Origin: a virus
Direction: 5' to 3' (one strand)
IMG/VR virus record: IMGVR_UViG_3300042335_000790
Location: 1 to 48,911 of that record
DNA length: 48,911 nt
Within the stretch, counting starts at the first letter, position 1. Every line of letters begins with the position of its first letter. The notes under the pieces are model-generated. The model was not told the DNA's origin and made no database searches. It saw nothing but the letters and a program-made list of their open reading frames with translations. Shown here piece by piece: positions 12,103 to 45,798 of this stretch. The position numbers were made by a program, and so were the translations under genes.

Positions 12103-13413
12103 ATGACCGATTTTGTTGAATTCCTGCCGCGTCTCAAGGGCAAGGACGTATACTTCAGCCTGAACAAGGAAAATCCGGACTGGAACGAGTCGGTTGGCGT
12201 TGAGCTTTCCTTTCGTCACGGCGGAGAGTCGCTGACGTTGTCCTTGGATGACGTGGATCAGTCTTCTTACCTCGCCTCTTCTCTTCATCATGTTCTGGAC
12301 GGCGGAAACGCGCTGATCTCTTGGTGCGCCAAGGATGTTTTTTCTTTTTTGAAGGGCCGCACCGGAATCGGATTGGAGCTGAAAGGGAAAATTTATGATC
12401 TTTCCGTCATATCTTCGTATCTCGGAATGGAGGCGGACAAGCCAAAGACGTTCAGGGAGGCTGTTGCTCTCCTGAAGTCCTGTTTGTCCGATCCCGGCTG
12501 GGAGCAATTCAAGTCTTTTTATTTCGGAGTATATGAACCACTTTTTTCTGAGGTTCTTCCCGAAATAGAGACGTGCTGTCTCGTGGACAACAAGAGAAGG
12601 AGTTGCGTCTACGCCACCTACGTGATTGAAGGTCAGGTGAACGGAAGACTCAGGACCGTCAAGACAGGGCGGAATTCTTACAATCCTCATTCAATGGGTC
12701 CTGACGACAAGCGTGATATCAGGCCACAGGACTACGACGACGTTTTTTTGTATTTTGACTACCGAAACATGGAGGTCAACGTCCTTCAATGGCTGTCGGG
12801 AGACGGGGATTTGGCAAGAGTGCTGGAGTCCGGTTCTGATCCATACAAGGAGATATGGCGGATCATCACCCGGCAGGAGCCCACAGAAGGCCACAGAAAG
12901 ATATGTAAGGACATATTCCTGCCCGTGGTATTCGGTCAAGGCAAATCTTCCTTGGCGGCCAAATTGAAAATTTCGGAAGAAATTGCTTCCAGACTCATAC
13001 ATAGCCTTGGTAAGACATTTCCCGTTGCCTTTGACTGGGTCAACTCCCAGTCAACCAATGGCAACAACACGGCGACTGACGCCTTCGGCCGCAAAAGGAC
13101 TTTTGACGGCCGGGAGCAGTACAAAGTTAAAAACTTTTGTATCCAGTCCCCAGCGAGCATGATCTGTTTGAGAAAACTTGTGCGTCTTCACGAGGCTCTG
13201 GCCTCTAGGGCGAGCATATGTTTTCACGTACATGATGGATATTACGTCCTTTGCAAGAAAAGCGAAATCAATTCAATTGCGGAACTCGGAATCAGAACTC
13301 TCGAGGAGGACGATTCCATGTTTCCGGGTCTCGCAATGCGTGTCTCCTGCAGGGCGGGAGACAGGTTGGATGACATGCGTTCTATAACACTAACAAAAAG
13401 GGTTTCAATATGA
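12103..13413 (+). CDS. polA: compact family A DNA polymerase with degenerate exonuclease domain
   Basis: A 436-residue PolA-type polymerase. Motif A is YFDYRNMEVNVLQWLSGD with metal-binding Asp219. Motif B is R265-KIC-K269 followed by FLPVVFG. Motif C is HVHD with Asp378. Before motif A, ATYVIEGQVNGRLRT matches the template-binding TGRLS region. Residues about 10-115 resemble the 3'-5' exonuclease fold (CAKDVFSFL like the ExoII NxKxD region, IYDLSVISSYLG like ExoIII), but the ExoI acidic pair is missing, so proofreading activity looks lost. The E. coli Phe762 position is Leu273. At 436 residues it is far shorter than Pol I, with thumb and fingers trimmed. It overlaps the next gene by four bases (ATGA). 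It is the likely replicative polymerase of this phage, replacing the family B enzyme of T4. Confidence 0.8.
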   Translation: MTDFVEFLPRLKGKDVYFSLNKENPDWNESVGVELSFRHGGESLTLSLDDVDQSSYLASSLHHVLDGGNALISWCAKDVFSFLKGRTGIGLELKGKIYDLSVISSYLGMEADKPKTFREAVALLKSCLSDPGWEQFKSFYFGVYEPLFSEVLPEIETCCLVDNKRRSCVYATYVIEGQVNGRLRTVKTGRNSYNPHSMGPDDKRDIRPQDYDDVFLYFDYRNMEVNVLQWLSGDGDLARVLESGSDPYKEIWRIITRQEPTEGHRKICKDIFLPVVFGQGKSSLAAKLKISEEIASRLIHSLGKTFPVAFDWVNSQSTNGNNTATDAFGRKRTFDGREQYKVKNFCIQSPASMICLRKLVRLHEALASRASICFHVHDGYYVLCKKSEINSIAELGIRTLEEDDSMFPGLAMRVSCRAGDRLDDMRSITLTKRVSI

Positions 13414-14728: not shown

Positions 14729-15763
14729 ATGAGAATTGAAAACGACATAAAACTTGACTATTCCGACGTGCTCATATGTCCCAAGCGATCCGAGTCGCCA
14801 AGTCGCAGGAATGTGGTTCTAGAGCGAAGGTTCAAATTTTTGAATTCGCGTGCGGAGTGGGAGGGGGTTCCCATTGTCGCGGCCAATATGGCGAACGTGG
14901 GCACATTTGGAATGGCCAAGGCCCTCGCGGGATTCAATATGCCGGCTTGTCTTCACAAGCATTATGAAATTGATCGTTTGGTTAAATTTTTTTCCGAAAA
15001 CACTGCCTTTTATGCGATGGGCATCAAGGATGAAGATTTGACAAAGTTTCATGAATTTGTCAGATCGTTCGGACGTAATCCGGATATGATATGTCTTGAT
15101 GTGGCAAACGGATACACGAGGCATTTCGTGGATCACTGCAAGAAAATCAGAGACAAATGTCCCGGATCAATATTGATGGCCGGGAATGTCTGTACCCCCG
15201 AGATGGTCCAAGAACTTCTTCTTGCTGGCGGCGTGGATATTGTGAAGATAGGCATAGGTCCGGGATCGGCGTGTACGACAAGAGTTGTCACGGGCGTAGG
15301 ATTCCCGCAATTTTCTAGCACGATAGAGTGTTCGGATGCCGCCCACGGTCTCAAGGGTCATATAGTAGCCGACGGTGGCTGCACGACTCCTGGAGACGTC
15401 GCCAAGGCCTTCGGTGCGGGGGCTGATTTTGTTATGCTCGGAGGCATGTTTGCCGGTCACGATGAATGTGAGGCGGATTGGGAGTATGATTCTGCCGGAG
15501 AAAAAACATTCATGCGGTTCTACGGAATGAGCAGCAGGGAAGCCATGGAGAAATTCAATGGGGGCGTTGCCGGATACCGGGCTGCCGAAGGCAGGTCTGC
15601 CAAGGTTCCGTATCGCGGACCTGTGGAGTCTACGGTTCAAGAAATACTCGGAGGTCTGAGGAGTGCCTGTACTTACGTGGGTACTGAAAGCCTCAAGGAC
15701 TTCAGCAAGTGCTGCAAATTCGTCAGGGTCAACAACACTCACAACAGAATATTTGAGAACTGA
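14729..15763 (+). CDS. guaC: GMP reductase
   Basis: A 344-residue TIM-barrel enzyme of the IMPDH/GMP reductase family, full length compared with E. coli GuaC (347). It reduces GMP to IMP and ammonia with NADPH. The catalytic loop GIGPGSACTTR (Cys182) and the phosphate-binding IVADGGCTTPGDVAKAFGAGADFVMLG region are intact, and the N-terminal LDYSDVLICPKRS opening is characteristic of GuaC. No CBS domains are present, which separates it from IMPDH. In a phage it would rebalance purine pools from host RNA/DNA breakdown, in line with ThyX and dNMP kinase elsewhere in the window. It stands just upstream of the replicative helicase. Confidence 0.9.
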   Translation: MRIENDIKLDYSDVLICPKRSESPSRRNVVLERRFKFLNSRAEWEGVPIVAANMANVGTFGMAKALAGFNMPACLHKHYEIDRLVKFFSENTAFYAMGIKDEDLTKFHEFVRSFGRNPDMICLDVANGYTRHFVDHCKKIRDKCPGSILMAGNVCTPEMVQELLLAGGVDIVKIGIGPGSACTTRVVTGVGFPQFSSTIECSDAAHGLKGHIVADGGCTTPGDVAKAFGAGADFVMLGGMFAGHDECEADWEYDSAGEKTFMRFYGMSSREAMEKFNGGVAGYRAAEGRSAKVPYRGPVESTVQEILGGLRSACTYVGTESLKDFSKCCKFVRVNNTHNRIFEN

Positions 15764-17398: not shown

Positions 17399-17915
17399 AT
17401 TGAACAAACTGATTCCTCAGTCCGACATTGACGCGATGAACCCCCACGCCCAGACCACCATCAAGATCGGTGGTCAGGAGGTGGTGTTGGACAACTCGAG
17501 ACTGGCCTTCAACGAGGTCAGCCTCAATAATTTCATGGAGAATCTCGCACTTTGGTACGACTACTTCAGCCAGAAACTCGCCGAGGCCGAGGCCATACTC
17601 TCCTACAAGGAGTACGAGTACGACGTTCTCTTCTCGGCTGCGTACGAGAGGAGCAAGGAAGGAGGCTGCACCGACAAGCTCGCCGAGGCCAACGCCAAGA
17701 AGGAGCCCAACGTGTGCGATGCAAAGAAGGAGATCATTGGTGCCAAGCACAAGGTCACCCTGCTCAAGCAGCACCTGAAGTCATGGGACAAGGCCCACGA
17801 GAACGCGATGAGCCGGGGGCACATGATCAGGAAAGAGATGGACAAGCTCAACACGGACATAGTGTTCAAGAGCAGGGACGATCAGGTTTCCGGCATAGTC
17901 GGCCGGCACGGCTGA
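17388..17915 (+). CDS. uvsY: UvsY-like recombination mediator
   Basis: A 175-residue helical protein whose layout follows T4 UvsY: an NFMENLALWYDYFSQKLAEAEA helix pair like the T4 LYSKWLNKHSSIKKEM region, a charged middle (residues about 70-110), then LKQHLKSWDKAHENAMSRGHMIRKEMD, matching the T4 C-terminal helix with its SRG element. UvsY loads UvsX on gp32-coated ssDNA. The resemblance is in order and motif, not high identity. Position between the gp41-type helicase and a repair glycosylase, with uvsX and an SSB nearby, supports it. Start is ATGATG at 17388/17391, overlapping the helicase stop. It ends in a TGATG overlap with the next gene. Confidence 0.6.
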   Translation: MMNELNKLIPQSDIDAMNPHAQTTIKIGGQEVVLDNSRLAFNEVSLNNFMENLALWYDYFSQKLAEAEAILSYKEYEYDVLFSAAYERSKEGGCTDKLAEANAKKEPNVCDAKKEIIGAKHKVTLLKQHLKSWDKAHENAMSRGHMIRKEMDKLNTDIVFKSRDDQVSGIVGRHG

Positions 17916-18499
17916 TGAACTACTTAGTAGACCCCCAGAACATAACGAAGTTTGACTGCGACGAGCAGGAACTTCAGTTGTTGATTCTTTTCTGGATATG
18001 TGCGGCGGGCAAGAAGGCGACCACTGCGGCCGCGAACCTTTGTCGAATTCTTGAGCGTGGCCGTTCCTTGTTCGGGGTTGAAGAACCGTTTGAGATCATA
18101 AGCAGATTCGGTCCGGACTTGGCGGAGACCATGAGGACCCACGGCATCGGATGCTACAACAACAAAAGTAGGTCCATGCTGGACCTCGTAGACAAGGGGC
18201 TTGATCTTTCCTCCTGTTCTGTGGCTGATCTGGAGCACGTCGTCGGCATCGGTCCAAAGACGGCCAGGTGCTTCGTCATGCACAGCAGGAGGAACGTGAG
18301 GCACGCCGGTCTGGACACGCACGTCTTGAAGTACATGAGAGAAAGGGGCCTTGAGGTACCCAAGTCAACACCCACGGGACGTAAGTATCTGGAGATAGAG
18401 AAAAAATTCATTGAGATGGCGGATTCGTCCGGGAAAACTATTGCTGAATTTGACCTAGAGATATGGAGGAGATACAGCTCAAAATCAAGGAGTGAATAG
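17915..18499 (+). CDS. HhH-GPD DNA glycosylase
   Basis: A 194-residue all-helical protein of the endonuclease III/MutY/OGG superfamily. The helix-hairpin-helix is LEHVVGIGPKTARCFV (106-121) with Lys115 at the position of the Endo III Lys120 nucleophile. The conserved catalytic Asp is Asp134 in LDTHVLK. Both residues suggest a bifunctional glycosylase/AP lyase. No C-terminal 4Fe-4S cysteine cluster is present. It would excise damaged or modified bases; the substrate is unknown. The start is fixed by the TGATG overlap with the uvsY-like gene; the frame continues upstream without meaning. Confidence 0.8.
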   Translation: MNYLVDPQNITKFDCDEQELQLLILFWICAAGKKATTAAANLCRILERGRSLFGVEEPFEIISRFGPDLAETMRTHGIGCYNNKSRSMLDLVDKGLDLSSCSVADLEHVVGIGPKTARCFVMHSRRNVRHAGLDTHVLKYMRERGLEVPKSTPTGRKYLEIEKKFIEMADSSGKTIAEFDLEIWRRYSSKSRSE

Positions 18500-32578: not shown

Positions 32579-33444
32579 TGAAGACACTAATCTGGTCGGT
32601 TGCTTGGGGCGAATACAGGTATATGCTTCAGACTCTGATGGATTCAATCCGTTCGTGCGGTTTGCAGCACGACATACTTACGTTCTCGGACGAGCCCCTG
32701 GCGAACGTGACTTCCTGCGAGGTTGACAAATCCATACAAATGGACTTCAAGCAGTATTGGAAGTTCCATTATCTGAATAAAATCCGCGAATTGGACTATG
32801 ATCTTTTTGTTTTCATAGACAGCGATCATTATTTTGTTAGAAAACCACCAAAGGAATTTCATGAAATAATAGGACCGGACCCTTGGCATTCGTTCCTTGA
32901 GTCGCCCATCAATTCCGAACTCACCAAGAGGCCCGATTGGTGGGGCGTCACCAACTCCAGTATGACCAAGATTTACAGGGACTTCGGCGTGACGCAAGAC
33001 ACGGTCTACAGCACGAACGGAGGGTTCTGGATGTGTCGCAAGGAATTCATGAAACAGGCGGCGAATGTCGGCTTCTTGTTCAGGGACTACCAAAAGGGCC
33101 TCGGGCTTGACCTGCCTGAGGAAGTTGCCATAGCCGTGATTTCCCACATGTTCAGTGCGGATTACTCCCAAAGATTTCACAAGAGATATATGGACATATG
33201 GGCCAGCGAGTGGACGGGAGTACTGCAGGACCGTCTTCCCGACGGATCACAATGGGAGTTTCAGGAATATATGACGGGAACAAAATCTCTTTTGAATCCG
33301 GCGATAGTACACGCGATGAGAAGCAAGAATGCTCTCGTCGGAGCGGGGAAGAGTACTTTTGAAAAGACCAAGTCAACTAGGAAGTTCATTTCGTGGGATA
33401 AAGTAAGGTCCGGAGCCCGCTGGAGTGTCTTTGATGAAGGCTGA
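32578..33444 (+). CDS. glycosyltransferase, GT-A fold
   Basis: A 288-residue protein. The opening MKTLIWSVAWGEYRYMLQTLMDSIR, followed by YDLFVFIDSDHYF with the metal-binding Asp81-Ser-Asp83, is typical of GT-A enzymes such as families 8 and 77. STNGGFWMCRKEF is the acceptor-side loop common in these. It is coupled to the preceding GT-B gene, so both probably build the same glycan. Overlaps thyX by 11 bases. Confidence 0.75.
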   Translation: MKTLIWSVAWGEYRYMLQTLMDSIRSCGLQHDILTFSDEPLANVTSCEVDKSIQMDFKQYWKFHYLNKIRELDYDLFVFIDSDHYFVRKPPKEFHEIIGPDPWHSFLESPINSELTKRPDWWGVTNSSMTKIYRDFGVTQDTVYSTNGGFWMCRKEFMKQAANVGFLFRDYQKGLGLDLPEEVAIAVISHMFSADYSQRFHKRYMDIWASEWTGVLQDRLPDGSQWEFQEYMTGTKSLLNPAIVHAMRSKNALVGAGKSTFEKTKSTRKFISWDKVRSGARWSVFDEG

Positions 33445-34078
33445 AATTCTAGGTCATTTTGGCGACGACCTTATGGTGGTCAACGCAGCCAGAGTTAGTT
33501 ACGGAAAGAACAAGGAGAATTTTGATGAGAAGGACGCAAAACTCATCAGGTTTCTCGTGGAGCACGGACACACCTCGCCTTTCCGTCATCCGCAATTGCA
33601 GTTCAGGATTGAGTGTCCCATATTTGTGGAGCGACAACTCTTCAAGCATCAGGTGGGCCTCACCGCAAACAGCATAAGCGGAAGATACGTTGATTTCTCG
33701 GACGAGTACTGGTTGCCCGACCAACTCAGGCTGCAGTCAAAGGACAGCAAGCAGGGAAGCAGTGGCGACCTTGATTCGGTCGCCAATGAAAATTTTAAGG
33801 ACCAGATGCAGATGCTACTCAAGCACGCCAAGTCCTTGTACGACCAGATGGAGGCTGCAGGCGTCGCCAAGGAGCAGTGCAGGATCATATTGCCGCTTTG
33901 TCTTGAGACTCAATTTGTTTGGACTGGTTCCTTGGCGGCCTTTATTCATTTGTGGAAACTTAGGTTGAAGCCCGACACCCAACAGGAAACTAGAGAATTG
34001 GCTCTAATGATGTTGGGCGCAGTTAAGTCGCTGCCGGGCTGCCCTTTCCTGCGTACGCTGGAGGCGTTCGGTCTTTGA
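33434..34078 (+). CDS. thyX: flavin-dependent thymidylate synthase
   Basis: A 214-residue ThyX enzyme, which makes dTMP from dUMP with FAD, NADPH and methylene-THF. Typical elements are VNAARVSYGK, HGHTSPFRHPQLQFRIECPIFVERQLFKHQ, SGRYVDF, and ETQFVWTGSLAAFIHLWKLRL. The ThyX signature (usually RHRxxSxNxxSxRY) reads KHQVGLTANSISGRY here, with Lys and Gln for the two Arg and one extra residue. The ATG has GGAG upstream. A GTG three codons earlier is less likely. Its stop overlaps the hldE TTG start. Confidence 0.9.
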   Translation: MKAEILGHFGDDLMVVNAARVSYGKNKENFDEKDAKLIRFLVEHGHTSPFRHPQLQFRIECPIFVERQLFKHQVGLTANSISGRYVDFSDEYWLPDQLRLQSKDSKQGSSGDLDSVANENFKDQMQMLLKHAKSLYDQMEAAGVAKEQCRIILPLCLETQFVWTGSLAAFIHLWKLRLKPDTQQETRELALMMLGAVKSLPGCPFLRTLEAFGL

Positions 34079-35433
34079 ACGAACTTTTGCAGCGGCTGTA
34101 CGACCACAAGCCCAGAGTCGCCGTTTACGGCGATGCGATGATTGATGAGTATTACGAGGTGGATTCCGACAAGTTGAGTCCGGAATTTCCCATCCCGGTA
34201 TTGCGGTCCTGTTTTTCCCAACCGCATGCCGTCGCTCTTGGAGGGGCCGCAAACGTTTGTGCACAATTTAGAAACTTTAATTTTGACGTAAGTTTGTTTG
34301 CTCTGACGAACGATAGGATCAAACGGATGGGTTCGGGCGTCAATATGGACGGATGTATCTTTTCAAGGTCGGTGCCGGTCAAAAGGAGATACTACAGCGG
34401 TGATTTCCCGCTCTGTCGCATTGACTCCGAGGTGCGTGATTACAACTACGAACAAGAGGTCTTGAAAGACCTGCAGCAAAAGATACTAGACAATCTTAGT
34501 TCCTCTGGCCCCTACGACGTGGTTGTTTTTTCAAACTATGAAAAAGGAATGTTTTCCGGGCTTGATAATTTTGCGTCTTTCGCGGGAGACGCGATAACGA
34601 TCGTTGATCCCAAGTCCGGTCCCCCCGAGCGATGGAGGGGTTGCACGATAATCAAACCCAATGCCAAGGAGGCCAAGGAGATAACCGGGCTTTCTGACTG
34701 GAAGGACCAATGCGCCCTTCTCATGAAGGCCACGGGATGTCAGGCTGTGGTTATCACGCGTGGCGGCGAAGACGTCGTGGGGAACGTGCAAGGTTTGTGG
34801 TTTGAATACAAGCCCGAGAGTCCCGTCCGAGCCAACTCCGTCGTGGGCGCGGGCGATTGTTTCGTTGCCTTTCTCGCCATGTGCATGTGCCATTCAATAG
34901 ACATCAGAAGGTCGGTGGAGATAGCGTTTGAGGCCTGTTCTCTTTATGTCCGCGAATCCCACAATAGGCCGATTTACCCTTATCAGATTGAGCCCACAAA
35001 ATTCGTGGATTCTAGGAATCTGATTAATCGCGATTTTAAACTGGCATTCACTAATGGCTTTTTTGATATTTTGCATCCCGGTCACGTGGAACTTCTCAAA
35101 CACGCCAAATCAAAGGCCGATTCGCTCGTTGTCGCCCTGAACACGGACGACAGTGCCATCAGGCAAAATAAATCCCACAGACTGGTGAATGGTTTGGACT
35201 ATCGCAAGTCCATGATTGCGGCCTTGGAGTGCGTTGACTTCGTTTTAGACTTCGGCGAGGACACCCCCTACGAATTGATTAAAAGAGTCAGGCCGGATGT
35301 CCTTGTCAAAGGCTCCGACTGGCCCAATCCTGTGGGATCGGACCTTGTGGGCGAGGTGTGTTCTTTCGGTTTGGTGGGAAATCATTCCACTACGGGTATA
35401 ATTGAAAAAATATGGTCAATTGCCCCTAGATAA
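34075..35433 (+). CDS. hldE: bifunctional heptose-7-phosphate kinase / heptose-1-phosphate adenylyltransferase
   Basis: A 452-residue HldE (RfaE) homologue, near the E. coli length (477). Domain 1 (1-310) is a PfkB/ribokinase-fold sugar kinase with VAVYGDAMIDEYY, ALGGAANVC and NSVVGAGDCFVAF (catalytic Asp). Domain 2 (about 320-452) is a nucleotidyltransferase with FTNGFFDILHPGHVELLKHAK and KGSDW. The pathway makes ADP-heptose, a Gram-negative LPS inner-core precursor and also a host innate-immune signal in animals. In a phage it may feed glycosylation of virion or DNA, or alter host LPS. The start is TTG in an overlap with the thyX stop, with GGAGG upstream; the conserved N-terminus excludes a later ATG. 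Confidence 0.88.
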   Translation: MNELLQRLYDHKPRVAVYGDAMIDEYYEVDSDKLSPEFPIPVLRSCFSQPHAVALGGAANVCAQFRNFNFDVSLFALTNDRIKRMGSGVNMDGCIFSRSVPVKRRYYSGDFPLCRIDSEVRDYNYEQEVLKDLQQKILDNLSSSGPYDVVVFSNYEKGMFSGLDNFASFAGDAITIVDPKSGPPERWRGCTIIKPNAKEAKEITGLSDWKDQCALLMKATGCQAVVITRGGEDVVGNVQGLWFEYKPESPVRANSVVGAGDCFVAFLAMCMCHSIDIRRSVEIAFEACSLYVRESHNRPIYPYQIEPTKFVDSRNLINRDFKLAFTNGFFDILHPGHVELLKHAKSKADSLVVALNTDDSAIRQNKSHRLVNGLDYRKSMIAALECVDFVLDFGEDTPYELIKRVRPDVLVKGSDWPNPVGSDLVGEVCSFGLVGNHSTTGIIEKIWSIAPR

Positions 35434-36370: not shown

Positions 36371-36624
36371 TGAGACGATTTTATTTCGATGAAGAGGGTC
36401 GTGGTGATGACGAGGAGGATGCGGAGGACATGGAGGGCATGGGTTTCATGCCTGAAGAATTTATAACCATGACCCCTATGTCCAATCCGGAGCATCATCT
36501 GCTGGATTGCGCCATTAAATTCTGCGAGAAGTCAATACTTTGGAGATTCATGGGAAACTCCTCCCGTCTCAAAATGCTGGAAGACGTATATGTTAGAATC
36601 AGAAACATGATGGAAGGTGCTTGA
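36367..36624 (+). CDS. acidic small protein, 85 aa
   Basis: Not recognised. An acidic N-terminal part (DEEGRGDDEEDAEDMEGM) and a helical C-terminal part with two Cys. The start is one of two adjacent ATGs next to GGAGG that overlap the preceding stop, so spacing to the ribosome site is short. Confidence 0.6.
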   Translation: MMRRFYFDEEGRGDDEEDAEDMEGMGFMPEEFITMTPMSNPEHHLLDCAIKFCEKSILWRFMGNSSRLKMLEDVYVRIRNMMEGA

Positions 36625-36625
36625 T

Positions 36626-36976
36626 ATGCCAAGATATGAAATGAAATGTGAAAAGTGCGAAGAAGTTTACGACGTTTGGTCAAACATGTCCGAAAAGACT
36701 GAAAACGTCGCCAATGCCGAATGTCCGTCCTGCGGCTCTCGAGAAAAAACGGAGATAATGGGTTGTCCTTCCGTAAAATTCGCCAACCCAGTCGGAACAG
36801 ACAGATGGAACAGCGAGAGCAAGGGACACGACTACAGGTTCAAACACAATATGGATAAGCCCGGAGGAACAAGGGATCAGCGTGCCGCTGCGGCGAAGGC
36901 GTCCAGAGTCGGGGCCGAACCGTACAGGAAGATAGACGACATATCAAGCGGCAAGCACTTCGGCGATGTCAAGTGA
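36626..36976 (+). CDS. FmdB-type zinc-ribbon protein
   Basis: A 116-residue protein whose first 40 residues form a FmdB-family zinc ribbon: PRYEMKCEKCEEVYD with Cys8-x2-Cys11 and ECPSCGS with Cys33-x2-Cys36. The C-terminus is charged and likely disordered. In bacteria FmdB-like proteins are putative regulators. It is directly upstream of the prkA promoter. Start fixed by spacing right after the previous stop. Confidence 0.8.
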   Translation: MPRYEMKCEKCEEVYDVWSNMSEKTENVANAECPSCGSREKTEIMGCPSVKFANPVGTDRWNSESKGHDYRFKHNMDKPGGTRDQRAAAAKASRVGAEPYRKIDDISSGKHFGDVK

Positions 36977-36982
36977 TCGGGA

Positions 36983-37010
36983 TTGATTAATTATTTATAC
37001 ACACTAGAAT
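36983..37010 (+). promoter_or_regulatory. sigma70-like promoter of the prkA-yeaH-spoVR operon
   Basis: TTGATT, 16-base spacer and TAGAAT, 31 bases before the prkA ATG. TTGTTCTGAAAA follows immediately (37014-37025), the same short element found ahead of the DNA polymerase and SSB genes, and overlaps the expected transcription start. Confidence 0.65.
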
Positions 37011-37041
37011 AAATTGTTCTGAAAACTGAAAGGAACAATAA

Positions 37042-39120
37042 ATGAGCGACAAGCTCCAGAAACTCTCCTCAAGGTTTGATAAAGAAAAATTCAAGAAGTT
37101 GAACGAGGAGATGTCGTTCTCCGAGTATGTTGATCTTCTGTATGAACGCCCGCGTCTCGCAAGGACGGCCTACCAGTATCTGTACGACATGATACTGAGC
37201 AAGGGCACCAGCAAGGTTGACAGGTACAGGAAGACCTACATCAAGTACAAGTTTTTTGAGGAGTCCGACACGCCGATATTCGGATTGGACGAGACTCTCC
37301 ATCAACTGGTTCAGTTCTTCAAGGGAGCAGCCGGAGGATACGGACCGGACCGCAGAGTTTTGCTCCTGCACGGACCTGTGGGGAGTTCCAAGTCAACGAT
37401 ACTGCGTTGCATCAAGAAGGGCTTGGAGAAGTACTCCCTCACCGAGGAAGGCGCTTGGTACACGTTCAAGTGGGTCAATCTGCCAACCGGCAAGGATGAC
37501 GGAATCTACACGCAGGCCGAGGACGAGTCGCCCATGCATGAGGACCCTCTTAAGTTGCTGCCGAGCGACATGAGGAAGGAGGTCATCGCGGACCTCAACA
37601 AGATTCTGGAGGAAGGCACTCCCGACAAGGAAAGGACTTCGTTGTACAGGATAACCATGGAAGGTGATCTGGATCCCCGTTCAAAGAAGTTCATGCAGGA
37701 ATTGCTCCTCAGAAACGATGGTGATTGGGGCAAGGTCGTGGAAAATCACATTCGCGTTGTTCGCAAGACCCACAGTGAGTCTGACCGATGTGGCATTGCG
37801 ACATTCCAGCCCAAGGATGAGAAGAACCAAGACAGCACCGAACTCACCGGCGATATCAACTGGGGAAAACTGCCCCATTTTGGTACGGACTCCGATCCAA
37901 GGGCCTTTAACTTTGACGGCGAGTTCTGCATAGGCAACAGGGGACTGGTTGAATTCATAGAGATGCTGAAGCTCGCCAAGGAGTTCCTCTACGACCTTCT
38001 CGGTGCGTCTCAGGAGAAGCAGATCAAGCCCAAAAAGTTTCCTCAGGTCGCCGTGGATACAGTCCTCATTGGGCATACGAATTCACCTGAATTCCTCAGG
38101 CTCAAGGGCGACCAGACCATGGAAGCTCTCAGGGACAGGACTGTGAAGATAGACGTGCCGTATCTCCTGAGGTGGAGCGAGGAACTCAAGGTCCTAGAGC
38201 ATCAGTACAACAATGAAAGGATAAAGCAACATATCGCCCCGCACACCCTGGAGATCGCCGCCCTCTGGTCGGTTCTCACGAGGCTGCAGGACGACAAGGA
38301 CGGAAAAATGACCCTCGTGGAGAAGGCCAAGCTCTACGACGGCAGAAGCCTTCCCGGCTGGACGGAGGACAGCGTCAAGGAACTAAGGGACAAGTATCCC
38401 GATGAGGGGATGATAGGCATCAGCTGCCGCTACACCCAAGACAAGATAAGCAATTGTCTCAGTTCGCACTATGACTACATAAATTTCTTCATGGTACTCA
38501 ATGAACTCAAGGCCGGGATAGACCACCAGTCGCTTCTCAACAATGAGGAGGACAAGGCGAAGTACGTGGCGTGCATAGACCTTGCCAAGAAGGAGCTTGA
38601 TGAAATCCTCAAGACCGAGGTTCAGAAGGCTCTTGTCGGTGACGAGCATGCCATAGAGAGGCTATGCGGCAATTACATAGACAATGTAATGGCCTACATC
38701 AACGGGACCAAGATCAGAAACCCATTCACCGAGCAGGATCAGGAGCCCGACGAGAGACTCATGCGCTCCATAGAGGAAAAGATAGACATTCCCGAGGTCG
38801 GAGCAGACGACTTCAGGAGGATGCTCGCGGGATTCATCGGACATCTGGCTCACGGCGGCAAGCAGTTCAAGTGGGACTCAAATCCCCAGTTGAAGAAGGC
38901 CCTTGAGGCGAAGTTGTTCGAGGACACCAAGGATCACATCAAGTTGTCGGCCCTTAATATCAAGGGAGCCACCGTCGTGGACAAGGAGGTTCAGGAGAAG
39001 ATTGATGCGGTGAAGCAGAGGCTCATAAAGAATTACGGATACAACGAGCAGAGCGCCACTGACGTGCTTGATTACTGCGGTTCTATATTCGCCCGAGGGG
39101 ATGTGGCTGAAGAGGACTGA
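37042..39120 (+). CDS. prkA: PrkA/YeaG-family serine protein kinase (AAA+)
   Basis: A 692-residue PrkA homologue (E. coli YeaG is 644). Residues about 1-400 form the AAA_PrkA domain: Walker A GPVGSSKST (111-119), then NRGLVEFIEMLK, a FLYDLLGASQEKQIKPKKF loop and VLIGHTNSPEF, all characteristic of the family, and LRDRTVKIDVPYLLRW. The C-terminal third, with VEKAKLYDGRSLPG, is the PrkA kinase-like part. In bacteria PrkA acts with YeaH during starvation and stationary phase. The gene starts a three-gene operon under its own promoter. Codon use is like the phage genes around it, so acquisition is not recent. Confidence 0.9.
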   Translation: MSDKLQKLSSRFDKEKFKKLNEEMSFSEYVDLLYERPRLARTAYQYLYDMILSKGTSKVDRYRKTYIKYKFFEESDTPIFGLDETLHQLVQFFKGAAGGYGPDRRVLLLHGPVGSSKSTILRCIKKGLEKYSLTEEGAWYTFKWVNLPTGKDDGIYTQAEDESPMHEDPLKLLPSDMRKEVIADLNKILEEGTPDKERTSLYRITMEGDLDPRSKKFMQELLLRNDGDWGKVVENHIRVVRKTHSESDRCGIATFQPKDEKNQDSTELTGDINWGKLPHFGTDSDPRAFNFDGEFCIGNRGLVEFIEMLKLAKEFLYDLLGASQEKQIKPKKFPQVAVDTVLIGHTNSPEFLRLKGDQTMEALRDRTVKIDVPYLLRWSEELKVLEHQYNNERIKQHIAPHTLEIAALWSVLTRLQDDKDGKMTLVEKAKLYDGRSLPGWTEDSVKELRDKYPDEGMIGISCRYTQDKISNCLSSHYDYINFFMVLNELKAGIDHQSLLNNEEDKAKYVACIDLAKKELDEILKTEVQKALVGDEHAIERLCGNYIDNVMAYINGTKIRNPFTEQDQEPDERLMRSIEEKIDIPEVGADDFRRMLAGFIGHLAHGGKQFKWDSNPQLKKALEAKLFEDTKDHIKLSALNIKGATVVDKEVQEKIDAVKQRLIKNYGYNEQSATDVLDYCGSIFARGDVAEED

Positions 39121-39128
39121 GGTGAATC

Positions 39129-40325
39129 ATGCCAAGACGGATCGATCAAGACCACAAGGACTTCCAGGACGTCTATGGCGGCATAAGGCGCAGGGAACTC
39201 AGGAAGTACATCAAGAACGGAAGCATCTTCAGGAACAGGGGCAAGAACGGCAAGGTAGTCGTGACGATCCCCAAGATAGACATCCCCCACATAGTCTACG
39301 GGGAGAACGACGAGGGGATCGGCAGGGGAAAGGGCGACAAGGGTGATGTAATAGGCCGAGATCCTCAAAAGGGGAATGGAAAAGGCAATAAGGCAGGTCA
39401 GGACGAGGGCGACGGCATAGAAATCGCCGTGGACATGGAGGACGTCCTCAAGTTCATGCAGGAGGAGTTGGAACTCCCTGAGATGAAGCCGAAGCCGGGC
39501 GACACCTACGAGCAGGTCATAAAGAAATACAACAACATATCGCTCGTGGGTCCCGAGAGCCTTCGTCACAACGCGAGGACGCTCAAGCAGGCCCTCAAGA
39601 GACAGTGCGCAGACGGATCAATAAACAAACTTCATCAGATACCCGGCTTCGCGAACCCGGTCAGACTCATCACCCCCATAAACAGCGACAAGAGGTATCG
39701 TCAGTTCAACGAGATAAAGATACCCTCGAGCAACGCCGTCATATTCTTCGCCCGAGACGGCTCCGCCAGCATGGATCAGTACAAGTGCGACGTGGTCAGT
39801 GACATGAGTTGGTGGATAGATGCATGGATCAGGAAGTTCTACGACAAGGTGGAAAGGGTCTACGTCTGGCACGACACCGTGGCCAAGGAGGTGGACGAGA
39901 AGAAGTTTTACAAGTACAGGTATGGGGGCGGCACAACCTGTTCCACGGCCCTCAAACTCATATCAAAGATGTTTGAGAACAGGTATGATCCTGTCAAATG
40001 GAACATATATCTCTTCTACTTCACCGACGGCGAGAACTGGGACGATGACAATTCTGTCTTCGCCAGAACCCTCAAGGAGGAATTCTCCGCCAAGACAGTA
40101 AACATGGTTGGGATAACGCAAATACTCTCGTGGAATTATGAAAACAGCCTGAAGCAGTACGTTGACCAGAACTGCAAGGCCCCAAACATACGGACCGCCC
40201 AGGTCGGAACCATGCCAAATCCTATGACGGATGAGGAGAGGGACAAGCAAATCAAGAACGCGATCATGGACTTGCTCGGCAAGGGAAGATCAAGGGAAAA
40301 CAACTACTGGCAGGTGATGGGATGA
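39129..40325 (+). CDS. yeaH: YeaH/YhbH family protein (DUF444) with VWA-like domain
   Basis: A 398-residue DUF444 protein (E. coli YeaH 427). The N-terminus MPRRIDQDHKDFQDVYGGIRRR, a Gly/Asp/Lys-rich linker (60-97) and the VWA/MIDAS-like domain with FFARDGSASMDQYK (Asp210, Ser212, Ser214) and YFTDGENWDDD are diagnostic. It is known as the partner of PrkA. Eight bases separate it from prkA, with GAGGTGA as ribosome site, and it overlaps spoVR by four (ATGA). Confidence 0.92.
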   Translation: MPRRIDQDHKDFQDVYGGIRRRELRKYIKNGSIFRNRGKNGKVVVTIPKIDIPHIVYGENDEGIGRGKGDKGDVIGRDPQKGNGKGNKAGQDEGDGIEIAVDMEDVLKFMQEELELPEMKPKPGDTYEQVIKKYNNISLVGPESLRHNARTLKQALKRQCADGSINKLHQIPGFANPVRLITPINSDKRYRQFNEIKIPSSNAVIFFARDGSASMDQYKCDVVSDMSWWIDAWIRKFYDKVERVYVWHDTVAKEVDEKKFYKYRYGGGTTCSTALKLISKMFENRYDPVKWNIYLFYFTDGENWDDDNSVFARTLKEEFSAKTVNMVGITQILSWNYENSLKQYVDQNCKAPNIRTAQVGTMPNPMTDEERDKQIKNAIMDLLGKGRSRENNYWQVMG

Positions 40326-43147
40326 ACCAGAACAAATTCATGCTCGGATCGCCCGTACTCATGGGCAACAATACTATCCCCGGCGTTCCGATGCCAGAGG
40401 AGTTGAAGAGGCTTCTGCCCGAGATATTCAGGAGGGTGAGCGAATTCGGCTGCGACTTTCCACCCACCGTAGTTGAGATGCTCACCTACGACGAGATCAG
40501 CGAAATCGCTGCGTATGGAGGATTCCCGGTTAGGTATCCGCACTGGAAATGGGGGATGGAGTACGAAGAACTTCAGCGCGGATATATGCACGGCATGCAT
40601 AGGATATACGAGATGGTGGTCAACACAGACCCCTGTTACCTCTATTGCCTAGATTCAAACACGCTCCTTGACAACGTGACGGTGGTGGCCCACGCCCTAG
40701 GCCACGCCGATTTCTTCAAGAACAATATTTACTTCGCTAAGACGAGCCAGAACATGATGAACGAACTGGCCAACCACGGCACGAGGATAAGGAAGTACAT
40801 GAGCCGTTGGGGCAAGGAAAGGGTCACGGAGTTCATAGACTATGTGCTCCGCATAGAGACCCTGATAGATCCCTCCAAGGCTTGGCAACCCAAGCGGTAC
40901 AAGGACAACATTCACCGGGACAGTAGGAAGTACCGCCATCCCAACCGTCTCAAGGTTGAGGATGGCCACGATTACATGGAGGAGTACGTCAACACTGACG
41001 AGTGGATCAAGAAGCAGCACGAGCAGATAGAAAAGATAGAGGCGGCCGAGTACCTTGATATGTTCGTTGGTTCCACCAAGGACATAATGGGCTTCATAAG
41101 GGACAACGCTCCGCTCAAGCCATGGGAGAGCGACATCGTCTCCATGCTCTACGAGGAAAGCATGTATTTCGCGCCGCAGAGGATGACTAAGACAATTAAT
41201 GAGGGCCATGCATGTGTAGGTCCCGAAACGCTTATAGCCACTGATGGCGGGCTTTTGACGGCACGAGAGTTGGTGGAGAATAAAATATCGTGCAATGTAT
41301 CAGACGGCGAAACCAATAGAAAAGTCAGCAACTGGTTTATTTTTAAGGACAGGGATACCGTAGAAATAGAAACCAAAAGAGGCTACAGGATATTGGGTTC
41401 CGACAACCATAGAATTATGGATTCCAATGGCCAGTGGGTTTATCTTAAAGACATCAGAAAAAAACACGAAGTAAAGATCGGCGTTTCTGATGTGTGGCCC
41501 CCAAAGATGGTCAGAATAAACTACAAAGAAGAAGAAAGGCTTACTACCTCCAAGATAAAGAAAATTCTTGGTTCAAGATATTGGAAGTACAACTACTACC
41601 GAATGGGAATGCAGACCGACGAGCAGGCGGGATCAAAAGTTGTTGAGTTGAGCAAGTTGTTTGATGAGCAGTTCTCAAGAATGGGACAAACCCAACTGAT
41701 TAGAAGAAAAAAAATTTCAATACCTTCATCGGTCACAGAAAGCCTCGCAAGTTTTCTTGGTTACATGATAGGAGACGGACACATTTCAGAATTGGGCAGG
41801 TCTCTAGGACTCACATCGGGAGACCTTGATCAAATTCAGGAATATGAACGCCTATTGAATTCTCTATTTGGATTGACTAGCAAGAGAAAATGGGACGGCA
41901 GTTCAAAAAATGGAAGGTGGAGAATTTCGTGCTCTTCAAAAAGTCTTCAGGAATTCTTGAAAAGCCTTGGTTTTTTGACCGGAAGGTGCGCAAGACAGAA
42001 GACAATACCCGAGTGCATTTTAAGGTCTCCAAAAAATGTGATGTCGGCATTCTTGCGTTCTTATTTTGACTGTGATGGCTATGCCGGCAAGGCAGGCGTC
42101 ATATTGTCAACCTCTAGCGAAAAGATGGGAGAACAAGTTCAGACTATTCTTTTAAATTACGGCATATTGTGTAGCAGAAAGAGAGCGAAGTCTTGCGACA
42201 AGACCAAGATTCATATATGGCATGTTAGAATGGGCAGTTCGCAAGCCAAAAAATTCATGGAGCAAATTGGTTTCGGATTGAAGAGAAAGCAAGACTCACT
42301 TTCAAAATATGTCAACGAAAGAAGATGGTTCGTAAAGGAAAAATGGTCCGACGAGGTTGTCTCAATCCGAAAAGGCAAGGAGACCGTATATGACATGACC
42401 GTGGACGAAACTCATCGCTATTCTGCCCACGGATTTATCAACCACAACAGCTGGGTTGACTACCACATAATAGCAAAACAGGGGCTGAGCGGACTCGGAC
42501 AGGAGCATGACAGTGCGGGCATCATAGAGTACGCCAAGCACAAGATGGGTGTTCTCGGGGGCAAGTACAGCATGAACCCATACAAGCTCGGATTTAATCT
42601 TCTTTGCGACATAGAGGAACGTTGGGACAAGGGCAGGTTCGGTCGCGAGTGGGAGGAGTGCTCGGATGCGAGCAAGAAGCAGGATTGGGATTTGAAGCTC
42701 GGGCTCGGCAGAGAAAAGGTCTTCGAGGTCAGGAAACTATACAACGACCTAACGCTGATTATGGAATTTTTTACCCCCGAGTTCTGCGAGAAGTACGAGT
42801 TCTTCGAGTGGAAGAAGTATCCAAATGGGGAATATAAGATAGAGAGCAAGGACCCGCACAAGATCAAGGCCAAGCTTGTCTCTAGGCACATGAACGGTGG
42901 TCTTCCCGAGATCAGGCTCATGGATCCGAATCACAGGGGCAAGGGCATAATGCTGCTCCAGCACAAGTGGACCGGACGCCCACTTCACGAGTCCTATGTG
43001 GGTCCAGTCCTTGAATCGTTGCGTCGTTTGTGGAAGAACGACGTTCATCTCGTCACTGGGGACAGGTCGGGTCGTGAGACGGTCTACAGGTGCCGTGGGG
43101 ATTCCTGCGAGGTGGATATGGTCCCGAGGGAGGAATACGGCTCCTGA
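40322..43147 (+). CDS. spoVR: SpoVR-family protein interrupted by an intein
   Basis: A 941-residue precursor. Residues 1-297 and 710-941 are SpoVR (E. coli YcgB 510; joined exteins 529): FGCDFPPTVVEMLTYDEISEIAAYGGFP, a HALGHADFF element, and NEGHA-SWVDYHI across the splice point. The C-terminus has EVRKLYNDLTLIMEFFTPEF. The central 412 residues are a LAGLIDADG intein, described separately. Function depends on splicing because the insertion breaks the conserved NEGxA...YH segment. In bacteria SpoVR/YcgB is linked with PrkA and YeaH in starvation and sporulation. Translational coupling with yeaH suggests equal amounts are made. Confidence 0.93.
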   Translation: MNQNKFMLGSPVLMGNNTIPGVPMPEELKRLLPEIFRRVSEFGCDFPPTVVEMLTYDEISEIAAYGGFPVRYPHWKWGMEYEELQRGYMHGMHRIYEMVVNTDPCYLYCLDSNTLLDNVTVVAHALGHADFFKNNIYFAKTSQNMMNELANHGTRIRKYMSRWGKERVTEFIDYVLRIETLIDPSKAWQPKRYKDNIHRDSRKYRHPNRLKVEDGHDYMEEYVNTDEWIKKQHEQIEKIEAAEYLDMFVGSTKDIMGFIRDNAPLKPWESDIVSMLYEESMYFAPQRMTKTINEGHACVGPETLIATDGGLLTARELVENKISCNVSDGETNRKVSNWFIFKDRDTVEIETKRGYRILGSDNHRIMDSNGQWVYLKDIRKKHEVKIGVSDVWPPKMVRINYKEEERLTTSKIKKILGSRYWKYNYYRMGMQTDEQAGSKVVELSKLFDEQFSRMGQTQLIRRKKISIPSSVTESLASFLGYMIGDGHISELGRSLGLTSGDLDQIQEYERLLNSLFGLTSKRKWDGSSKNGRWRISCSSKSLQEFLKSLGFLTGRCARQKTIPECILRSPKNVMSAFLRSYFDCDGYAGKAGVILSTSSEKMGEQVQTILLNYGILCSRKRAKSCDKTKIHIWHVRMGSSQAKKFMEQIGFGLKRKQDSLSKYVNERRWFVKEKWSDEVVSIRKGKETVYDMTVDETHRYSAHGFINHNSWVDYHIIAKQGLSGLGQEHDSAGIIEYAKHKMGVLGGKYSMNPYKLGFNLLCDIEERWDKGRFGREWEECSDASKKQDWDLKLGLGREKVFEVRKLYNDLTLIMEFFTPEFCEKYEFFEWKKYPNGEYKIESKDPHKIKAKLVSRHMNGGLPEIRLMDPNHRGKGIMLLQHKWTGRPLHESYVGPVLESLRRLWKNDVHLVTGDRSGRETVYRCRGDSCEVDMVPREEYGS
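41213..42448 (+). mobile_element. LAGLIDADG homing intein in SpoVR
   Basis: It starts with Cys298 (CVGPETLIATDGG, block A) and ends with Asn709 before Ser710 (GFINHN/S, block G with the penultimate His). Block B shows GYRILGSDNHRI with His363. Block F is ETVYDMTVDETHRYSAHGF. Two LAGLIDADG helices are present: SFLGYMIGDGHI (Asp485) and FLRSYFDCDGYAG (Asp584/Asp586), so the homing endonuclease looks intact. All splicing residues are present: Cys1, His in block B, His-Asn at the end and Ser+1. Its sequence is visibly more AT-rich than the flanking exteins, as expected for a later arrival. Confidence 0.95.
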
Positions 43148-43154
43148 AATTGCG

Positions 43155-43180
43155 AAAAACCCTTATTTTAAGGGCTTTTT
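43155..43180 (+). terminator. probable terminator after spoVR
   Basis: CCCTTA-TTT-TAAGGG hairpin with flanking A5 and T5 runs (one bulged C), just after the spoVR stop. The A/T symmetry would let it work in both directions. It separates the PrkA operon from the ClpP-like gene. Confidence 0.7.
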
Positions 43181-43250
43181 GGGTTGGTTTTTTGCCTGTC
43201 GGCGGGGCTAAATATGGTGTCATTTCCACTAGACTAATACGTGGTGCACC

Positions 43251-43937
43251 ATGAATTCAATCACGAAGAGAAGTGTATCAGTAGAACAGCTGATAAGCGA
43301 GATACACAACCACCACATCAACAATCTTAATCGTGAGATATACCTCCACGGGTACGTGGACGCCGAGGAGGAACCGGGCGTGGAGTACAGGATGGCCACG
43401 TCCTTCGTGAAGAACCTGCACATATTGGAGTGCCAGAACAGTCAGAACATACTTGTTCACATGCATACGATCGGCGGAAACTGGAGCGACGGCATGGCCA
43501 TATTCAACGCCATAAGGTTGTCTAAGGCTCCTATGACGATACTCGGATACGCCCAGGCGAGCAGCATGAGTGGCATAGTGTTTCAGGCAGCCGACAAGAG
43601 GGTTCTGATGCCGGACTGCGAGATGATGATTCACCACGGTTCCATATCTCTTGAGGACAACACCATGGCCGCCAAGAGTGCGATAGACCAGAACGAGAGG
43701 AACTGCAAGAGGATGCTTGAGGTTTTCGCTGAGCGGGCCGTCCATGGCAAGTATTTCAAGGACAGGAAGTTCAGTTTGAGGAAGGTCAACAACTTTATAG
43801 ACCAGAAGATAAAGCAGGTCGGCGACTGGTATCTCATGCCGGACGAGGCTGTGTACTATGGCTTGGCAGACGGGATTCTCGGCGAGAAGGGTTTTGAGAA
43901 CATGTCAAAAATCAGGGGTGGAAGGAAGAGTAAATGA
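43251..43937 (+). CDS. ClpP-like serine peptidase
   Basis: A 228-residue ClpP/crotonase-fold peptidase. IGGNWSDGMAIFNAIRLSKAPMTILGYAQASSMSG is the substrate-groove and oxyanion region with nucleophile Ser105, and MIHHGS holds His128. The catalytic Asp is not certain. It lacks a clear ClpX/ClpA hydrophobic-cleft signature and no Clp ATPase is in the window. It might serve as a prohead protease, as some ClpP-type phage proteases do, or join the stress module just upstream. It lies beyond the terminator, so it is probably a separate transcription unit. Confidence 0.8.
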   Translation: MNSITKRSVSVEQLISEIHNHHINNLNREIYLHGYVDAEEEPGVEYRMATSFVKNLHILECQNSQNILVHMHTIGGNWSDGMAIFNAIRLSKAPMTILGYAQASSMSGIVFQAADKRVLMPDCEMMIHHGSISLEDNTMAAKSAIDQNERNCKRMLEVFAERAVHGKYFKDRKFSLRKVNNFIDQKIKQVGDWYLMPDEAVYYGLADGILGEKGFENMSKIRGGRKSK

Positions 43938-44229: not shown

Positions 44230-45798
44230 ATGAGGGCGATTGATCTTTATTCCGGCGTTGGAGGATGGTCTCTCGGTCTTTCCATGGCCGGAGTCTCTGT
44301 GGAATCATCCTATGAATGGTGGGGTAAGGCCAATCTCACAAATGAGAGGAACAACGGCCACAAGATCGTGATGGCCGACGTGAGGGGACTTCCTTTGTCT
44401 GGATTTCCTCAGGCGGACATTGTCGTCGGCAGCCCGCCCTGCACTCAGTTTTCTCTCGCCAACAGGGGAGGCAAGGGAAACATACTAGAAGGCCTCAAGG
44501 ACGTGGAGAAGTTTCTGGAGGTCGTGGAAGCCGTCGGGCCTAGGTTTTGGGCCATGGAGAACATTCCCCGCCTCGCCGCCATCATGAGAAGCGAACTCAA
44601 TCAGGGCGGCGTCCTGCACAGGTTCTGCGGTTTGAATCCGACCATACTTGTCTTGGATGCCAGTGAGTGGGGCGTACCCCAACGAAGGCAGCGGTGCATA
44701 ATAGGGAATTTTAATTCCGATCTGCTCCTAGCCTACAGGGATAAATCAATTTCTAGGACCTTAGGATGCGTTCTAAGGGCCCTTTCTTCGCCGTTGGCCC
44801 ACGACCCCGTTTACGGCACAGAAATCCCTCAGGAAGCCCTTGTTGACCACGAGAAAGAGTTGTCTCTCTCTTGGGAGGAGGAAAGGATCAACAGGGAGAC
44901 CAAGACCCACCATCCCGTCTACAACAATATGTCTTTTCCCGACCGTCTGGACAGGCCTTCTAGGACCGTCACGGCCACCTGCACGAGGGTGTCAAGGGAG
45001 AGCATAGTCGTTCCTGAGGGGGACGGCTTCAGGCGTCTTAGCCTACGCGAACGTGCGTGCCTTCAGTCTTTTCCTGTGGCCTATCAGTTCTACGGCGACA
45101 CTCACCCGCAGAAGCAGAAGATGATAGGCAACGCCATTCCGCCGCTTCTTTCCTATCACATAGCCCACGCCATGCTCGGGACCCTGACGGACGATCTTCC
45201 TTCTCCGTCCGAGTCAATCAAAAATTTTGTTCCGCCTTCCGCTCCCAAGGCCACCCGTCCCGACAAGCCCGGCTATTCATTCGCCATCGATAGAAAATTC
45301 AGGGCGGCTATACCGGGGTTGAGGTTCAAGAGCGGTGTCCGTTTTGAACTTTCCAATTCTTTTCCCGGTCCCGAATGGTCCATCAAATTCTTTTATGGAA
45401 ATTCCAAGAATATAAAAGAAATCATTCTGGGCTCTGGTCTATTGGGGGAGATCAAGAGCGTGGAAGGAACGGGAGTGTGTGTTTCCAAGGCCACCAACGC
45501 CCTTTTTGAAATTGGTGGAATTATGGATTCTTTGGACCCGGTTGGACTCCAAGGAGCATGGAGCCACACCCGTGAATACAAGCATCCTTATGAATTGGTG
45601 GACTCCTTGGGTCGTGCGGTGGAACTTTTCATGAGCGAGGACGAGGGAATCGCCGAATCGGTCGTTTCCGGAATCATGGCATCAAGGAACAATCCTCAGG
45701 GATGCAAGAAGGTAATAAGGCACGCCAAGGCCGTTTTCTCTGGGCTTTTGATTGGTTCAATTTTCAACGATACTATAAGTCAATTACCCACCCCCTAA
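44230..45798 (+). CDS. C5-cytosine DNA methyltransferase with C-terminal extension
   Basis: A 522-residue enzyme. All main m5C motifs are present: I (DLYSGVGGWSLGL), IV (GSPPCTQFS, nucleophile Cys71), VI (MENIPR), VIII (QRRQR), IX (RPSRTVTAT) and X (GNAIPP), in residues 1-330. The remaining 190 residues form an extra domain (FAIDRKFRAAIPGLRFKSGVRFELSN...) not typical of Dcm, with no known motif seen. No cognate restriction enzyme is next to it, so protection from host restriction or phage DNA marking is the likely use. The target sequence is unknown. Confidence 0.88.
   Translation: MRAIDLYSGVGGWSLGLSMAGVSVESSYEWWGKANLTNERNNGHKIVMADVRGLPLSGFPQADIVVGSPPCTQFSLANRGGKGNILEGLKDVEKFLEVVEAVGPRFWAMENIPRLAAIMRSELNQGGVLHRFCGLNPTILVLDASEWGVPQRRQRCIIGNFNSDLLLAYRDKSISRTLGCVLRALSSPLAHDPVYGTEIPQEALVDHEKELSLSWEEERINRETKTHHPVYNNMSFPDRLDRPSRTVTATCTRVSRESIVVPEGDGFRRLSLRERACLQSFPVAYQFYGDTHPQKQKMIGNAIPPLLSYHIAHAMLGTLTDDLPSPSESIKNFVPPSAPKATRPDKPGYSFAIDRKFRAAIPGLRFKSGVRFELSNSFPGPEWSIKFFYGNSKNIKEIILGSGLLGEIKSVEGTGVCVSKATNALFEIGGIMDSLDPVGLQGAWSHTREYKHPYELVDSLGRAVELFMSEDEGIAESVVSGIMASRNNPQGCKKVIRHAKAVFSGLLIGSIFNDTISQLPTP

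Follow-up and report, generated by a model that had tools for sequence, protein, structure and literature searches.

What does a phage gain from a complete module of PrkA, DUF444 (YeaH), and SpoVR, three protein families known chiefly from bacteria? The question is raised by a virus record of 48,911 bases (IMGVR_UViG_3300042335_000790), referred to here in its whole length as the window, in which the genes for PrkA (37042 to 39120; 692 amino acids [aa]), DUF444 (39129 to 40325; 398 aa), and SpoVR (40322 to 43147; an open reading frame [ORF] of 941 codons plus a stop) follow one another on the plus strand. PrkA and DUF444 are spaced by 8 bases (39121 to 39128), and DUF444 and SpoVR overlap in ATGA (40322 to 40325), which confirms the order, gap, and overlap described in a sequence-only reading of this DNA. 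PrkA comprises an AAA+ domain (residues 24 to 419, with Walker A motif GPVGSSKST; AAA_PrkA, PF08298, E value of 6.4e-76, profile positions 1 to 355 of 358) and a PrkA C-terminal domain (residues 426 to 678; PF06798, 1.5e-77, 1 to 255 of 255), both above the Pfam cut-offs. Its score against the NCBIfam equivalog model NF011999 (PRK15455.1) is 204.5 bits, below the cut-off of 576, and by these profiles it is classed as a member of the family and not as an NF011999 equivalog. By sequence it resembles PDB 9xip_A (3e-207), an entry titled just "serine protein kinase." DUF444 (PF04285, 2.6e-61; 208.4 bits against a cut-off of 27) has a predicted von Willebrand factor A (vWA) domain at about residues 200 to 386 with the metal ion-dependent adhesion site (MIDAS) motif DGSAS. 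The sequence-only reading held that the P-loop and MIDAS residues are intact, and this extends to the relatives: the P-loop GPVG..KST is present in 82 of 82 phage PrkA sequences, and D-x-S-x-S in 79 of 80 phage DUF444 sequences by a simple pattern. It also held that all three proteins are full length. The Pfam domains, including those of SpoVR (PF04293, 6.6e-94; SpoVR_C, PF24755, 7.3e-8), are indeed above their cut-offs, but SpoVR is split by a 412-aa intein that had been overlooked.

The window is genuine phage DNA. Its positions 27042 to 48577 (21,536 bases) match the end of a viral contig of 150,762 bases (G009) with 100% identity, the two assemblies possibly sharing reads and thus being incompletely independent. 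In G009, a T4-like Gp23 capsid gene lies at 9.4 to 10.6 kb (6.7e-86) and the module at 142 kb. Five further records combine the trio with a strong Gp23 match on one contig, namely, G004 (319.9 kb), LR756511 (595 kb), G221 (511 kb), G223 (343 kb), and G224 (299 kb); the capsid protein of G009 shares 72% identity with its counterpart in G004 and 81% with that in LR756511. PrkA and Gp23 are both present in G216 (459 kb), and G005 and G209 have weaker Gp23 matches. Of 13 module-bearing records, many of them probably fragments, five were found to contain Gp23 and three a terminase family. A viral scan with the DnaB protein of the window returned just six loci, too few for counting the module in relatives.

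The arrangement is strongly conserved. In a PrkA-seeded scan of viral contigs (best 80 of 134 relatives), 76 of the 80 loci carry the three genes in this order on one strand (SpoVR being counted also where a contig end leaves just its start), and in the remaining four (L073, L074, L078, and L080) the contig stops directly after the last visible gene. A SpoVR-seeded scan (best 80 of 172 relatives, with many contigs common to both sets) revealed the trio in 77 of 80 loci; two of the misses are contigs that start inside or just before DUF444, and the third, L234, has no PrkA in the 4.7 kb upstream. DUF444 and SpoVR overlap or lie no more than 25 bases apart in 65 of 77 loci, and the gap between PrkA and DUF444 ranges from 6 to 2,513 bases. 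Among the best 80 of at least 585 bacterial PrkA relatives, which by record title belong to Planctomycetota, Myxococcota, Bdellovibrionota, Chloroflexota, and others, 47 loci contain PrkA, DUF444, and both halves of SpoVR in the same order and on the same strand; 2 of these have an intein separating the SpoVR halves, and 45 have none there. Of the other bacterial loci, one has a changed arrangement, and the others are truncated or have no detectable neighbor within the flank.

Phylogenetic analyses (quick LG+G4 trees) separated phage from bacterial sequences by one branch in each of the three families: 50 phage versus 73 bacterial sequences for PrkA (Shimodaira-Hasegawa-like approximate likelihood ratio test [SH-aLRT] support of 99), 48 versus 52 for DUF444 (SH-aLRT, 100), and 46 versus 41 for SpoVR with its inteins removed (SH-aLRT, 100). 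The PrkA tree was built from 127 of 166 extracted sequences after the removal of near-copies at 92% identity, and the Thermus phages and Enterobacter phage LAU1 fall far outside in it; the other two trees were drawn from the set kept for PrkA, excluding short sequences, the Thermus phages, and LAU1. Since the same split recurs in all three trees together with the shared synteny, the bacterial trio was most likely acquired once, long ago, within the sampled phage clade and kept as a unit since. The phage-only clade with conserved synteny that the sequence-only reading had proposed to look for was found in this sample, with three supported branches and the gene order kept in nearly all loci. The trio genes are under purifying selection in the pair L023/L025, the sole pair with synonymous divergence (dS) below 1 for all three, in which the ratios of nonsynonymous to synonymous divergence (dN/dS) are 0.008 for PrkA, 0.040 for DUF444, and 0.021 for SpoVR; other pairs are near or beyond saturation, and their finite ratios for the trio genes are 0.03 to 0.10.

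The SpoVR intein of the window (41213 to 42448, plus strand; residues 298 to 709) matches a splicing domain (PF14890, 1.2e-10) and, in two stretches, LAGLIDADG endonuclease (PF14528, 1.4e-21). It is in frame, and inteinless relatives set its junctions at NEGHA/C...HN/SWVDYH. The N-extein (residues 1 to 297; 40322 to 41212), which holds H124-A-L-G-H128 and N293-E294-G-H-A297, and the C-extein (residues 710 to 941 plus the stop; 42449 to 43147), delimited by Pfam and inteinless relatives, amount together to 529 aa. The first residue C, the terminal HN, the +1 Ser, the splicing domain, and the existence of inteinless homologs at the exact site are those of a class 1 intein. With these residues intact, the intein would splice out and leave a normal SpoVR. 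In a comparison of the SpoVR ORF with solved structures, all 12 matches fall within the intein region or border on it (query residues 295 to 709).

Inteins occupy two sites in the phage genes. Among 76 phage loci with exteins of at least 500 aa, near-identical contigs such as the window and L004 being counted separately, site A alone is occupied in 6, site B alone in 10, and both sites in 8, whereas no intein was detected in 52. The site A junction is VxN/C...HN/T, the reading frames stay open across the phage SpoVR inteins, and the site A and site B inteins form separate families in the intein tree. Both adjoin invariant SpoVR residues, namely, N101 and N293, E294, G295, and A297. At least 10 (site A) and at least 8 (site B) presence/absence changes are required on the phage SpoVR tree. 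L025 and L027, which are 99.96% identical over 13.6 kb and 99.99% over 7.2 kb, are set apart by one precise 1,320-bp site A intein, for which gain and loss cannot be polarized, and L023 and L025 (96.9 and 94.8% identical) differ by a site B intein. L025 and L049 are 62 to 86% identical from PrkA to the beginning of SpoVR, DUF444 included, and 97 to 100% across intein B; in the roughly 0.9 kb downstream of it, identity drops from 90% to 71%. In this pair, dS is 0.04 in the intein and 0.89 in the SpoVR exteins. This identity peak with its decaying flank and low intein dS is the trace expected of homing with co-conversion, and the signs of recent homing at the two SpoVR sites are strong. Identity between L025 and L049 is also raised (93 to 99%) beside the empty site A of L025, which suggests that L025 may have lost a site A intein or that a longer tract was exchanged. 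The pair L043/L027 shows no such peak, with about 65 to 81% identity across intein B and up to 95% in intein A.

Site B is also used in bacteria, where an intein was found in 3 of the 80 loci (L097, L104 at a contig end, and L120) and in 4 of 195 genomes of one phylum, that of L120 included. In the intein tree, two bacterial site B sequences group together beside phage sequences with modest support, a placement that would allow exchange between phages and bacteria in either direction. A viral scan with the L120 intein, made with exact short patterns that reach close relatives alone, found no relative. No GDG motif was found by pattern in two site B inteins, those of L054 (337 aa) and L097 (279 aa), which may have lost their endonuclease. 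Outside SpoVR, close to the module, L058 has another intein-like match (27%) at 17710 to 18495.

On balance, with the scales tipped slightly toward it, we favor an operon of a lineage of huge phages with a T4-like capsid protein, in which a trio acquired once, its SpoVR invaded by inteins, forms an AAA+/vWA/SpoVR machine that overrides the stress program of the host. PrkA would form a AAA+ ring powered by ATP, with DUF444 as a metal-dependent vWA adaptor and SpoVR, perhaps with a gluzincin-like metal site, as the subunit that handles clients; the homing inteins would splice from the phage protein to give normal SpoVR. Produced in infection, the machine would remodel or degrade particular proteins, so that the stress and stationary-phase program of the host is replaced or overridden. 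This mechanism is suggested by the predicted folds, by the description of bacterial PrkA, DUF444, and SpoVR as a co-conserved triplet (PMC2375023), and by the report that yeaG and yeaH mutants behave alike in nitrogen starvation (PMC4664914). The control of host state proposed in the sequence-only reading, whether the host is held in or rescued from starvation or its proteolysis is redirected, is plausible.

Several points weigh against this reading. Phage monophyly is established for the sampled clade alone, since loci were picked by nearness to the window, and the distant copies in LR756504, LR745206, and LR756502 stand outside the trees. In a reverse scan by capsid protein, a PrkA match was found in 2 of 12 contigs, which are linear records and probably fragments; the 10 without a match include contigs of 323 and 251 kb, so that the trio may be less than universal in the phage clade. 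Loss of the module, which the sequence-only reading took as a refutation if seen in all related phages, may have occurred in some relatives. The biochemistry of PrkA is itself disputed, with negligible kinase and protease activity described for one PrkA (PMC13001217).

The remaining adverse points concern the fold and active site of SpoVR. In favor of the reading, the DUF444 model (predicted local distance difference test [pLDDT] score of 74) matches vWA domains with Z scores of up to 15.4 over 164 residues (root mean square deviation [rmsd], 3.3), and DUF444 is predicted to have a vWA fold with MIDAS; sequence searches found no solved structure for DUF444 or for the SpoVR profile. For SpoVR, the gluzincin idea comes from one AlphaFold2 model (pLDDT, 78.2) whose VIA-align Z scores, at most 9.5, fall short of the tool's own caution threshold for helical models, among which, it warns, scores of this size can be common. 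The best matches are M32 carboxypeptidases (Z scores of 9.5, 8.9, and 8.6; the top one, 5giv, has an rmsd of 4.3 over 186 of 530 residues), followed by ACE2 and DPP III at a Z score of about 6, near which unrelated folds also appear. The best Foldseek E value is 0.2, and sequence searches and profile comparison gave no support for a gluzincin relation: hhalign places NEGxAS of SpoVR onto NExFA of M1 peptidases over 14 columns with a P value of 0.0056, against 0.011 for an unrelated control pair and 0.38 for M32, and kinship to M1 or M32 peptidases by sequence was not significant. The motifs H-x-x-G-H and NEG are nevertheless conserved, with H124, H128, N293, E294, G295, and A297 invariant in 29 aligned inteinless SpoVR proteins, and H-x-x-G-H and NEGWAS resemble the M1 motifs HELAH and NEGFA, the latter present in 2 of 9 M1 proteins compared. 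The invariant H124, H128, and E294 could be metal ligands. In phage SpoVR sequences the second position of H-x-x-G-H is taken by A (76 of 78) and in bacterial ones by V (52 of 53), the remaining sequences not fitting the pattern, and no sequence that fits it has Glu there; with the catalytic residue of HExxH replaced in this way, ordinary peptidase chemistry is unlikely for SpoVR. The spacing also speaks against a gluzincin, as in 75 of 77 phage sequences NEG starts 167 to 169 residues past the first His, whereas in M1 peptidases the NEG-type motif lies about 20 residues after it. We lean against a gluzincin-like SpoVR, while still giving the idea appreciable weight. Should a metal site be found in SpoVR, a family with no known function would be opened to testing.

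Other explanations were weighed against a host-directed machine. The trio may instead serve the phage's own assembly or virion maturation, with phage proteins as the targets of an AAA+/vWA chaperone. A gene for a ClpP-family peptidase (43251 to 43937, plus strand; PF00574, 5e-19) follows the module, and ClpP homologs lie near it in 38 of the 80 SpoVR-seeded phage loci; head maturation proteases account for four of the eight ClpP matches in PHROG, including the top three, and the trio occurs in nearly all sampled loci. The capsid gene, however, is distant from the module where both could be placed, as in G009, and the bacterial homologs work in stress and sporulation, which makes this an improbable explanation. 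Equally improbable is a bolder form of the host takeover, in which the trio is a near-universal machine of a huge-phage clade with an altered gluzincin-fold SpoVR, intein splicing acts as its switch, and the site B intein is swapped with bacteria; the switch is a speculative reading of the position of the inteins in the putative metal-site motif. We consider it still less likely that the trio is an anti-defense or superinfection exclusion system that removes host defense or rival-phage proteins. AAA+ and vWA pairs are versatile remodelers, and the trio is retained across the sampled phages, but PADLOC, which lists defense and not anti-defense systems, has no match for PrkA or DUF444. SpoVR matches homing endonuclease models alone, through its intein, and a known defense system was rejected on finding nothing else in PADLOC. 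That selfish intein homing merely keeps a useless SpoVR gene in the genome is very improbable: the two insertion sites and the many presence/absence changes would fit it, but the trio is kept regardless of intein presence, including in the 52 of 76 loci with complete SpoVR and no detected intein, and dN/dS is low in PrkA and DUF444 as well. A misassembly of bacterial DNA onto a phage contig, which the chiefly bacterial distribution of all three families might suggest and which the sequence-only reading had named as a refutation, can be dismissed with near certainty and is ruled out as contamination or chimera by the identical stretch in the capsid-bearing G009 (reads possibly common), by the same arrangement in many further viral contigs, and by the distance of the closest bacterial PrkA among the matches listed (56% identity).

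Regulatory elements around the module were also predicted. The one sigma70-like promoter claimed earlier corresponds to a single site, TTGATT-16-TAGAAT, containing ACTAGAATA, at 36983 to 37011 on the plus strand, found by a sigma70-like pattern scan; because shuffled sequences gave a mean of 8.0 such sites and the region itself one, the match on its own is weak, although a TTGATT...ACTAGA(A/T)TA-like sequence precedes PrkA in several near relatives by eye. ACTAGANTA occurs three times in the window (18514, 37003, and 43228, plus strand) against 0.48 expected, two of the three copies lying directly upstream of PrkA and ClpP (before the latter as the ACTAGACTA element at 43228 to 43236), and is a possible phage promoter element. 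A terminator-like hairpin with a T-rich tail lies 3' of SpoVR (43160 to 43174, plus strand), in a region with 6 such hairpins found and 8.4 expected in shuffles. On its 5' side the module adjoins the gene for a small Zn-ribbon (FmdB-like) protein (36617 to 36976, plus strand; PF09723, 1.9e-8, just above its cut-off), homologs of which lie near the trio in 61 of the 80 SpoVR-seeded phage loci. Downstream of SpoVR, L023 (18506 to 20567) and L025 (19719 to 20845) have a long internally repeated region.

Elsewhere, the window encodes a collagen-like ORF with GHQGDQ repeats that extends past the window edge (1 to 1575, minus strand) and, on the plus strand, IMP dehydrogenase/GMP reductase (14729 to 15763), ThyX (33425 to 34078), and a C5-cytosine methylase (44230 to 45798). 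A 436-aa ORF (12103 to 13413, plus strand) matches DNA polymerase A at residues 206 to 421 only, with the remaining profile unmatched. A PfkB-type kinase fused to a cytidylyltransferase domain (34075 to 35433, plus strand), which is HldE-like, hints at phage-encoded synthesis of sugar nucleotides of the ADP-heptose type.

The trio is common in bacteria and its biochemistry is unclear, and the phage lineage offers a compact, independent version for study. That the three genes are held together over large phage divergence is an evolutionary argument for the three proteins as one unit, and with the SpoVR inteins recent homing in huge phages can be studied in a natural setting, one of the insertion sites being used in some bacteria as well. 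Carriage of the trio by phages is already known, and its novelty is weakened by the copies in Thermus phages, huge-phage records, and RsoM2USA. A PrkA match was found in 16 of 50,697 records of a phage collection, from 11 Thermus phages, 4 uncultured huge phages, and 1 Enterobacter phage. In the last, LAU1, YeaG-YeaH lies at the very start of the record and is possibly flanking bacterial DNA. In Ralstonia jumbo phage RsoM2USA, PrkA (ORF30) and SpoVR (ORF28) are close together on one strand, and the table of the phage's paper gives Alcanivorax and Vibrio proteins as best matches; no YeaH gene is named alongside them (PMC8504454). A term search of the main text of the huge-phage paper PMC7162821 found no PrkA, SpoVR, sporulation, intein, or kinase; in the literature searched, no paper pairs "jumbo phage" with "serine protein kinase PrkA" or "SpoVR" with "intein." Within reach of these searches, novelty appears to lie in the phage-specific trio lineage and in the inteins of SpoVR.

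The nearest known systems differ from the module in distinct ways. Thermus phages phiYS40, phiLo, and MN1 likewise carry the complete trio, annotated as "serine kinase" or "serine protein kinase" (PrkA), SpoVR, and a "conserved bacterial" or hypothetical protein (DUF444), but their PrkA is about 30% identical, the order is DUF444-SpoVR-(x)-PrkA, they form a separate tree branch, and no intein was detected by pattern. The huge phages LR756504, LR745206, and LR756502 (634 to 642 kb) have all three families, in the order PrkA-DUF444-SpoVR in the first two and with SpoVR located elsewhere in LR756502, and their PrkA is about 26% identical. The uncultured huge phage LR756511.1 (595,163 bp), an unannotated record, is closer, with the same order, a PrkA of 67% identity, and the related capsid noted above, but its SpoVR has no intein. 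The bacterial PrkA/YeaG-DUF444/YeaH/YhbH-SpoVR/YcgB set consists of the same three families, mostly in the same order and strand as described above, from which the phage proteins differ by their separation in all three trees, by the A that mostly replaces the bacterial V at position 2 of H-x-x-G-H, and by their frequent inteins. These inteins, in turn, resemble known class 1 LAGLIDADG inteins in C1, the terminal HN, the +1 Ser, the splicing domain, and the two LAGLIDADG stretches, with the difference that the host protein here is SpoVR.

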